Assembly (NCBI GenBank): GCA_002238605.1
Contig: MPMR01000022.1
Coordinates: 1 to 64,000 of the forward strand
Length of the DNA: 64,000 bases
From: BD2-11 clade cluster bacterium bin43
GTDB taxonomy: Bacteria; Gemmatimonadota; Gemmatimonadetes; Longimicrobiales; Gaopeijiaceae
Direction: 5' to 3'
The first letter of the stretch is position 1, and the number at the start of each line of letters is the position of its first letter. The notes beneath the pieces are model-generated. The model did not search any database. It had not been told where the DNA came from and worked only from the letters and a program-made list of their open reading frames with translations. This document shows positions 53,936 to 56,070 of this stretch, in pieces. Position numbers and translations under genes: made by a program.

Positions 53936-54075
53936 GCGCCCCCCCCCGCGGTTCGCCTACTCCCGGCCGCGCCGGCGCCGGAGCGACGCCCGCCCCCCGG
54001 GGCAGGGCCCACCCCGGCCCCCCCCCCCGGGGTCCCCCCCCCCCCGGCCGCGCCGGCGCGGGAGCGCCGCCCGCC
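53936..54075. repeat. Low-complexity GC-homopolymer tract with an ~81-bp direct repeat
   Basis: Runs of 10-13 C interrupted by few other bases, overlapping the end of the ARPP-1 gene. CGGCCGCGCCGGCG...GAGCG...CCCGCC occurs at about 53964-53994 and again at about 54045-54075, 81 bp apart. As in the TonB-receptor gene, the homopolymers may be sequencing or gap-filling artefacts. Confidence 0.75.
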
Positions 54076-55096
54076 GCTGCCGGTAGCTCGCGTACGCCCC
54101 GGGATCGTCCCCGGCAGTGGCGCGCGTGGGCTCGGAGAAGGCGGTCAGGTGCAGCGCGACCTCCTGATGGATCAGCGCCCCCGCAATCGCGCCCCTCGCC
54201 ACCACCCCCACGTCATGCCCCAGCGCGACCGCCGGGTGGACATCGAATGCCCCTTCCAGCAGACGGTCGACGAAGGCGCGCGCGTGTTTCCGCTTCGCAG
54301 CCCGGTCACGAGCCGGCGGCCGCTCCATCGCATCGATGGCGTAGCTGCGCACCAGCTTGGGGAAGAACGCCGCGAAGGTTTCGGGCTTGTCGAAAAGATC
54401 CAGGCCGACCTGACGCCTGTCGGTGACGAAGATGGCCCCGACCTGGCCGGCATTGAGGGACAGCTTCTCGACGTAGTCGTCCAGCGTGGCCCCGTGGCGC
54501 TCGTAGATCGCGCTCATCGCCTCGGTCGCCGAGGGCGCTTCCATGCGGTTGGCTTTCGCGCGCACGGAGTCCCATACCGCGCCCTGGTCCGAGCGCCGGG
54601 TCCCCGTCGTACGCATCGATTCGTGCACGGTGTGGAGTCTCTGCGCCCGCCCGCGGCTGTATTGCACCCGCTCGGTCACGGCGAAGTCGGGCCGGCTGTA
54701 GCCCCAGCGCCCGGCCTCCACGCACGACACCGGGATGGTCGTGGTACGTTCGGCCGGTACCAGCAGGGTGAGGTTGGCGATCCGGTTCTGCTTGGCGCCC
54801 ACCAGCTCCTCGCCATCGACGATGAGCACGTCGGAATCCGAGCGGTTCTCGACCGCGAGATTCGGGACGCTGCCTCCCTCGTCCACTTCCCGGACCGAAA
54901 CCAGCCCGGTGTGCAGACCTTCCTCGAGGAGCAGGTAGCGGACGGAACTCCGGACATCCGACGTCAGCGGAAAGACGGTCAGGCCGGCGAAGTGTCCGGG
55001 CTTTCCGACCGACAGGCTGGAGAGCGCGGCCCGGGCGCTGTCGATGGGGGTTTGGATGGCATGAGCGTCGGAGTCGGCAAGGGACGGTTGGCGCAT
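53957..55096 (-). CDS. ARPP-1-domain protein
   Basis: 379 aa from ATG 55094-55096 (GGAGA site; an in-frame ATG at 55129 is further up). No signal peptide. Recognised by its conserved run: GLTVFPLTSD, YLLLEEGLHTGLVSVREVDEGGSVPNLAVENRSDSDVLIVDGEELVGAKQNRIANLTLLVPA, TIPVSCVEAGRWGYS, DQGAVWDSV, LSLNAGQVGAIFV. ARPP-1 domains were named from association with ADP-ribosylglycohydrolase, rhodanese and phosphatase families; biochemical function is not established. The last ~45 residues (RRAALPRRRGRGGGDPGG and so on) are the low-complexity tract and may not be real. The gene is divergent from a MerR-type regulator. Confidence 0.82.
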   Translation of the reverse strand: MRQPSLADSDAHAIQTPIDSARAALSSLSVGKPGHFAGLTVFPLTSDVRSSVRYLLLEEGLHTGLVSVREVDEGGSVPNLAVENRSDSDVLIVDGEELVGAKQNRIANLTLLVPAERTTTIPVSCVEAGRWGYSRPDFAVTERVQYSRGRAQRLHTVHESMRTTGTRRSDQGAVWDSVRAKANRMEAPSATEAMSAIYERHGATLDDYVEKLSLNAGQVGAIFVTDRRQVGLDLFDKPETFAAFFPKLVRSYAIDAMERPPARDRAAKRKHARAFVDRLLEGAFDVHPAVALGHDVGVVARGAIAGALIHQEVALHLTAFSEPTRATAGDDPGAYASYRQRRAALPRRRGRGGGDPGGGGRGGPCPGGRASLRRRRGRE

Positions 55097-55119
55097 GGTG
55101 GTATCTCCTTGTATATTGT

Positions 55120-55144
55120 CAGTAATCACCAGTTGTTGTCAGTA
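55120..55144. promoter_or_regulatory. Candidate operator 1, three phased CAGTN boxes
   Basis: CAGTA (55120-55124), CAGTT (55130-55134), CAGTA (55140-55144), each exactly 10 bp from the next. On the minus strand this covers the -10 and the presumed transcription start of the ARPP-1 gene. Confidence 0.65.
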
Positions 55145-55169
55145 TACAGACTTGACCGGCTCATGTCAA
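55141..55169 (-). promoter_or_regulatory. Near-consensus sigma70 promoter of the ARPP-1 gene
   Basis: Minus strand: TTGACA (55164-55169), 17-bp spacer, TATACT (55141-55146). The start of transcription would be about 55134, leaving a leader of roughly 40 nt before ATG 55096. The promoter is unusually close to consensus, consistent with a strong promoter held down by a repressor. Confidence 0.7.
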
Positions 55170-55194
55170 CAGTAGTTATCAGTTGATACCAGTA
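55170..55194. promoter_or_regulatory. Candidate operator 2, three phased CAGTN boxes
   Basis: CAGTA (55170-55174), CAGTT (55180-55184), CAGTA (55190-55194): the same layout as operator 1, shifted exactly 50 bp. It lies directly upstream of the -35 on the ARPP-1 side and within the leader/promoter side of the MerR gene. Confidence 0.65.
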
Positions 55195-55245
55195 AACGAC
55201 ACTTCCGGGGACAACCGAGGGCGCCGGCAGCCTTAGAGGCAGAGA

Positions 55246-56070
55246 ATGGGCAGCTATACGACGAAGGAACTGGAGCGCGACACCGGCTTCGGCCGGAGGA
55301 CGATCGCGTATTACGTACAGGAGGGCCTGCTGCCCCGGGTCGGCCGGCGAGGGCCCCGCACCCGCTATCCCGAACTGGTGCGGGATCGGCTCCTCTTCAT
55401 CCGCCGCGTACGCGAGGCCGAGGCCGAGGGTGAGATCCGGCCGGTGCCCCTCCGCGACCTGCGCGGGTTGTTCGAAGCCCTGCCCCAGGAGCTGGTCGCG
55501 AGCGTCGCCGCCGGGGAGACCCCGATGACCGGCGACATCGTGTCGCGCTCATCCGTCGATCAACGTTCGATGGTCGACCGGGTGGCCGCGCTCAGGAAGC
55601 GGCTCCTGGCTGAGCCGCCGGAGCTGGCTCTCAGATCCCCGGCGCCCCCCCTCCACGAGAGCGAGAGGATGTCCCCGCCTGCGGAAAGGCCCCGGGACCT
55701 CGATGACGAGTGGACGCACGTGGCCGCTCCTCTGCCGCCGGAATCGTGGCTGGATGACGATGTCGTTGCCGACGCACCGAGCCCGCCCGGGAGTCCCGCG
55801 GAGCCGGACGAGGACGCCGATGCCCTCGGGAACCAGCTGTCCTGGGTGCTGAACGAGCTCCGGGCCCAGGCCCGCCGCCGGCACGAACTTGCTCCGGACA
55901 CGATCGACACCTGGTCGCAGGTCGAGGTTACGTCCGACATCCGACTCGCGATTCGGGGGATGGCGGACGAGGACGCGTTCCTTCTGCGGGTCGCCGGCCG
56001 CCTGCTGCGGCAGCTGCTGGAGAGCCGCACTCCGGCGGCGGAACGAAGCTCGGACGAGTTCGAGGAGTAG
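55246..56070 (+). CDS. MerR-family transcriptional regulator
   Basis: 274 aa. An N-terminal MerR winged helix is clear (YTTKELERDTGFGRRTIAYYVQEGLLPRVGRRGPRTRYPELVRDRLLFIRRVREAEAEG, about residues 4-65). The rest is long and largely disordered (Pro/Ser/Asp-rich, 110-190), with a helical C-terminus (NQLSWVLNELRAQARRRH; DAFLLRVAGRLLRQLLESR). There is no metal-type Cys pattern as in MerR or CueR. It is transcribed divergently from the ARPP-1 gene and the interval between them carries paired phased repeats, so it is the likely regulator of that gene and of itself. Confidence 0.85.
   Translation: MGSYTTKELERDTGFGRRTIAYYVQEGLLPRVGRRGPRTRYPELVRDRLLFIRRVREAEAEGEIRPVPLRDLRGLFEALPQELVASVAAGETPMTGDIVSRSSVDQRSMVDRVAALRKRLLAEPPELALRSPAPPLHESERMSPPAERPRDLDDEWTHVAAPLPPESWLDDDVVADAPSPPGSPAEPDEDADALGNQLSWVLNELRAQARRRHELAPDTIDTWSQVEVTSDIRLAIRGMADEDAFLLRVAGRLLRQLLESRTPAAERSSDEFEE

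Follow-up and report, generated by a model that had tools for sequence, protein, structure and literature searches.

What reads the six short repeats between the divergent genes for an ARPP-1 family protein and a MerR-like regulator (merR), and how would its binding affect the promoter that they surround? The question was raised by an earlier note on the stretch of DNA analysed here (64 kb, the window), which described CAGTA-N5-CAGTT-N5-CAGTA occurring twice around a minus-strand promoter, TTGACA-N17-TATACT, for the ARPP-1 gene. The boxes were found at the coordinates given in that note, and the promoter is present, with 11 of 12 positions matching the consensus (Table 1).

Table 1. Positions in the window of the genes, repeat arrays and promoter elements of the ARPP-1/merR locus.
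Feature	Position	Strand	Evidence or remark
ARPP-1 gene	53957..55096	-	PF20208, Pfam E 6.6e-93; start codon CAT 55094-55096; AGGAG-type RBS 55105-55109
Array A (A1 CAGTA 55120, A2 CAGTT 55130, A3 CAGTA 55140)	55120..55144	+	sequence, genome pattern search, orthologue comparison
-10 hexamer TATACT of ARPP-1 promoter	55141..55146 (read 55146-55141)	-	overlaps box A3
-35 hexamer TTGACA of ARPP-1 promoter	55164..55169 (read 55169-55164)	-	17-bp spacer; directly abuts box B1
Array B (B1 CAGTA 55170, B2 CAGTT 55180, B3 CAGTA 55190)	55170..55194	+	sequence, genome pattern search, orthologue comparison
Fourth B box, weak, CACTT, in phase	55200..55204	+	sequence and orthologues
MerR-like regulator gene (merR)	55246..56070	+	PF13411 above cut-off; AlphaFold model; invariant RRTIAYY

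Boxes A1 and A2 are downstream of the -10 hexamer, over the predicted start site and the early ARPP-1 transcript. On the other side, B2 and B3 extend upstream of the -35 hexamer toward the divergent gene, array B as a whole being placed between the -35 and merR. The weak CACTT box occupies the position of a better box in the loci of a sister genus. A search for a plus-strand merR promoter gave a single match (55088-55117), partly inside the coding sequence of ARPP-1; inspection by eye revealed no conserved candidate. A classical palindromic MerR site was also considered for the intergenic region and rejected, the inverted repeats there being only imperfect. A gene of the fructosamine kinase family (PF03881, 56100-57020) follows close 3' of merR on the same strand and is possibly co-transcribed with it. 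The literature on ARPP-1 function yielded nothing useful.

A pattern search of the whole genome (4.47 Mb) found CAGTA-N5-CAGTT-N5-CAGTA at exactly two places, both around the ARPP-1 promoter; all genome-wide scans for boxes reported here used pattern search only. In the 64-kb window, arrays A and B are the only runs of at least three CAGT at 10- or 11-bp steps, and 300 versions of its sequence randomized by an order-1 Markov model contained none. On these counts a chance origin of the arrays was rejected.

Forty-three genomes, from three genera and two families, were found to carry the MerR-like gene: 11 belong to the window's genus, 21 to a sister genus within its family and 11 to a third genus, which is placed in another family of the same class. 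ARPP-1 is divergent from merR in every locus checked. The earlier note had named orthologous loci lacking the repeats as evidence against its reading; CAGT-like boxes in a single orientation, at 10- or 11-bp steps and on both sides of the ARPP-1 promoter, are kept in all 42 intact intergenic regions. The remaining genome (G034, loci L014/L085) has lost this region and was left out of the count; its ARPP-1 and merR genes run together, with both starts and the entire operator missing, through either natural deletion or assembly error. The window's genus keeps boxes A1-A2-A3 and B1-B2-B3, as does the sister genus, often with an extra box inside the promoter spacer. In the third genus the boxes are degenerate (CAGTG, ACGCT, CAGTA; CGGTT, CGGTA, CAGCA) although merR is intact, which counts against the reading proposed below.

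The promoter is held together with the boxes. Its -35 is TTGACA or TTGACT across all three genera, B1 abuts it in nearly every locus, and the 17-bp spacer is kept in all loci except L067, which requires 18 bp. At this spacing the window's genus has the -10 TATACT, and the sister and third genera have TACTGT, formed from box A3; in L045 an altered hexamer, TATGAT, preserves the 17 bp. The alignment of divergent ARPP-1/MerR pairs, suggested in the earlier note, thus bore out the phased boxes, at 10- or 11-bp steps, but not the 50-bp offset between the two copies. This offset is exact in the window, where it corresponds to 4.8 turns of 10.5-bp B-DNA and not to the five turns claimed; from A1 to B1 it is 48-50 bp in most relatives and 53 bp in L045. 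Because it varies while the spacer and the box step are held, a fixed 50-bp offset is not supported. The looping suggested for the two copies loses its support in the same way: that MerR acts as a looped oligomer for which the 50-bp offset is essential agrees with the spacing in most of the window's genus, but offsets of 48, 49, 50 and 53 bp among orthologues make this very improbable.

Within the alignment of the window's genus, 29 of 30 box columns are invariant, compared with 18 of the 47 remaining positions of the array (p = 7e-8). The merR leader has 7 invariant columns out of 30 and the 5' coding region of ARPP-1 has 39 out of 100. The comparisons of boxes with other regions give Fisher p values from 7e-8 to 2e-9, with columns treated as independent despite the relatedness of the genomes. 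All six columns of the -10 hexamer are invariant, and in the weak fourth B box only CA is. This pattern of conservation supports selection on the arrays.

The arrays also follow the regulator gene. Such arrays are present in none of 14 examined ARPP-1 loci without this MerR (eight plus six loci, among them L028, which ends early at a contig end), and genomes without it have only stray matches to three phased CAGT. In the sister genus, 19 of the 20 genomes with an intact region carry three CAGT at 10- or 11-bp steps at the ARPP-1/merR promoter, with very few matches elsewhere. Two sister-genus genomes without merR gave no ARPP-1 match either, in a search that had no positive control of its own. 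The co-occurrence of arrays and merR rests on three genera only. Because the arrays are kept together with merR in 42 genomes, they are most likely docking sites of the neighbouring regulator; and since they accompany merR and are missing at MerR-less ARPP-1 loci, MerR is the most parsimonious binder, which is not proof. The adjacent protein, already the candidate of the earlier note, therefore remains the most likely one on comparative grounds. Most MerR-less loci have a different sequence, TGTCA[CG]ACCC, shortly upstream of ARPP-1 (L027:1453, L029:1086, L030:2515, L031:2596, L033:2091, L143:1451, L144:2052, L146:1856, L147:1498 and L145:2290), which is found neither in the window nor in the MerR-bearing loci compared, and may be either a separate operator or a repeat element.

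The MerR-like protein has 274 amino acids, with an N-terminal winged helix-turn-helix (wHTH) at about residues 1-88. PF13411 (MerR_1) scores 24.9 bits in the window protein (cut-off 21.6) and matches all 39 aligned members, in which RRTIAYY and GRRG..TRYP are invariant. In the region where classical MerR proteins have a long dimerization helix following the wHTH, the AlphaFold monomer prediction gives short helices at 69-78 and 81-88, and after them a low-confidence helix at 101-122. A linker of low predicted confidence joins the wHTH to a conserved C-terminal domain at about 186-262, modelled as helix, beta-hairpin and helix with pLDDT >80. This domain is encoded at 55798-56067 of the window, and its W223 and R237 are invariant. 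It may be a ligand or oligomerization domain; alone, it had no convincing match among PDB sequences, and no B12-binding domain was matched by Pfam in any of the 39 members. In a fold search the wHTH fell among numerous MerR proteins whose scores were tied, and the search did not tell BldC from CarH; the absence of BldC among the matches listed carries no information.

Here it is proposed, with a probability of about 0.7, that the adjacent MerR-like protein uses the six boxes as a bipartite operator, with one wHTH per box, arranged head to tail, occluding the ARPP-1 promoter and controlling merR. This polymerase-excluding mechanism is put forward on the precedents of BldC (PMC5859096) and CarH (PMC9304148). 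Each CAGTW box with its 5-bp linker would make a 10-bp unit of about one helical turn, read by a single wHTH, and the protomers would stand head to tail along one face of the DNA in the manner of BldC. Occupancy of array A would cover the -10 and start site of ARPP-1, and that of array B would fall directly behind its -35, so that with both arrays filled RNA polymerase would be denied access. Array B is also just upstream of merR, which would allow autoregulation, and the protein would come off the DNA in response to a signal, for which the conserved C-terminal domain is the probable sensor. The location of array B, immediately behind the -35, would suit an activator equally well. Activation is common among MerR-family proteins, and B1 adjoins the -35 nearly everywhere; MerR might thus activate ARPP-1 from array B in a class I/II position, with array A limiting expression or controlling merR. 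This alternative is considered unlikely, given the near-consensus sequence and 17-bp spacer that the promoter already has, and the fact that A3 overlaps or makes up the -10, which is a repressing geometry.

Repression by the adjacent MerR-like protein has also to be weighed against the distribution of the motif in the rest of the genome. Each genome of the window's genus contains 12-21 occurrences of CAGTA-N5,6-CAGTA, compared with 2-7 of the reversed control; no comparable excess was found in other genomes of the family. Linkers between these boxes follow GAYRH (116 linkers among the matches listed, read by hand), giving a 10-bp unit CAGTA-GAYRH, and five of the six linkers of the window operator score >2 bits on this pattern, as do 3.5% of random linkers. 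In the two genomes examined (G000 and G007), the arrays are mostly in short intergenic gaps adjoining genes of diverse function, with gene starts called by a simple GC-position rule, and several are at orthologous positions in both. They include arrays in L086-L112 (e.g., L086:2581-2616 and L093:2503-2537), and genes nearby include lepA/ROK kinase, thiG, a TRAP transporter, and agmatinase-like and acyl-CoA synthetase-like genes. Because arrays occur in this genus away from merR, another protein could own the CAGTA motif there, binding a genome-wide set to which the ARPP-1 promoter, with its fitting linkers, would belong, and having merR as only a target or neighbour. Such a protein is improbable, more so than activation from array B, since the sister genus retains the array at the ARPP-1 promoter without a genome-wide excess, loci without merR lack the arrays, and no close merR paralogue was found in genomes carrying this merR. 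Behind the CAGTA-GAYRH arrays limited to the window's genus may be either a MerR unit that has spread to further targets or a second protein using the motif. Combining the former with the proposed operator, it is tentatively suggested, as a rather speculative extension, that a MerR-like protein, sensing through its C-terminal domain, forms polymers along CAGTW direct repeats flanking a promoter and that, in one genus, a private one-promoter regulator came to act at many loci via the spread of its 10-bp unit.

If true, the pairing of a conserved split array with a larger MerR-like protein would make repeat-tiling a more widespread solution among MerR proteins. The array would supply the little-studied ARPP-1 family with a ready-made operator, and the spread of the unit within a single genus a directly testable case of regulon expansion.

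MerR proteins classically act as symmetric dimers on palindromes. The classical family (MerR, CueR, SoxR, CadR) shares the wHTH fold and PF13411 with the window protein; however, its sites are single palindromes in a 19-20-bp spacer, whereas here there are direct repeats and a 17-bp ARPP-1 spacer. Recombination directionality factors of the RdfS type also have a wHTH and are reported to form oligomers on DNA (PMC11963761); no recombinase or attachment site was noticed here. The earlier note called the direct repeats unusual, which stands relative to classical sites but not relative to two regulators that already bind tandem direct repeats, BldC (PMC5859096) and CarH (PMC9304148). CarH, the B12 photoreceptor of Thermus, Bacillus and Myxococcales, has a MerR-type wHTH (Z 8.4, rmsd 2.1 over 70 residues against that of the window, tied with other MerR proteins) and represses from tandem direct 11-bp repeats that include the -35 (PMC9304148). 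Its nnnnTnnACAn units stand three or four in one run, unlike the 10-bp CAGTW units here; on inspection, TnnACA does not recur at 11-bp steps in the window operator, and CarH/LitR carries a C-terminal B12-binding domain that the window protein lacks. BldC of Streptomyces, from the BldC family of MerR-like proteins, binds a variable number of tandem direct repeats, protecting 5-bp tracts one helical turn apart and coating promoter DNA (PMC5859096). The likeness to the window system includes the MerR-like wHTH and direct repeats spaced by about one helical turn, here at 10- or 11-bp steps in three genera, a comparison of DNA geometry only. BldC, however, is a 68-residue wHTH alone, unlike the 274-residue protein with its conserved C-terminal domain, and it reads AATTXXXX(C) units instead of CAGTW. 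Head-to-tail operators are known so far for few MerR-class regulators, and the array split around one promoter, unlike that of BldC, distinguishes the operator proposed here.
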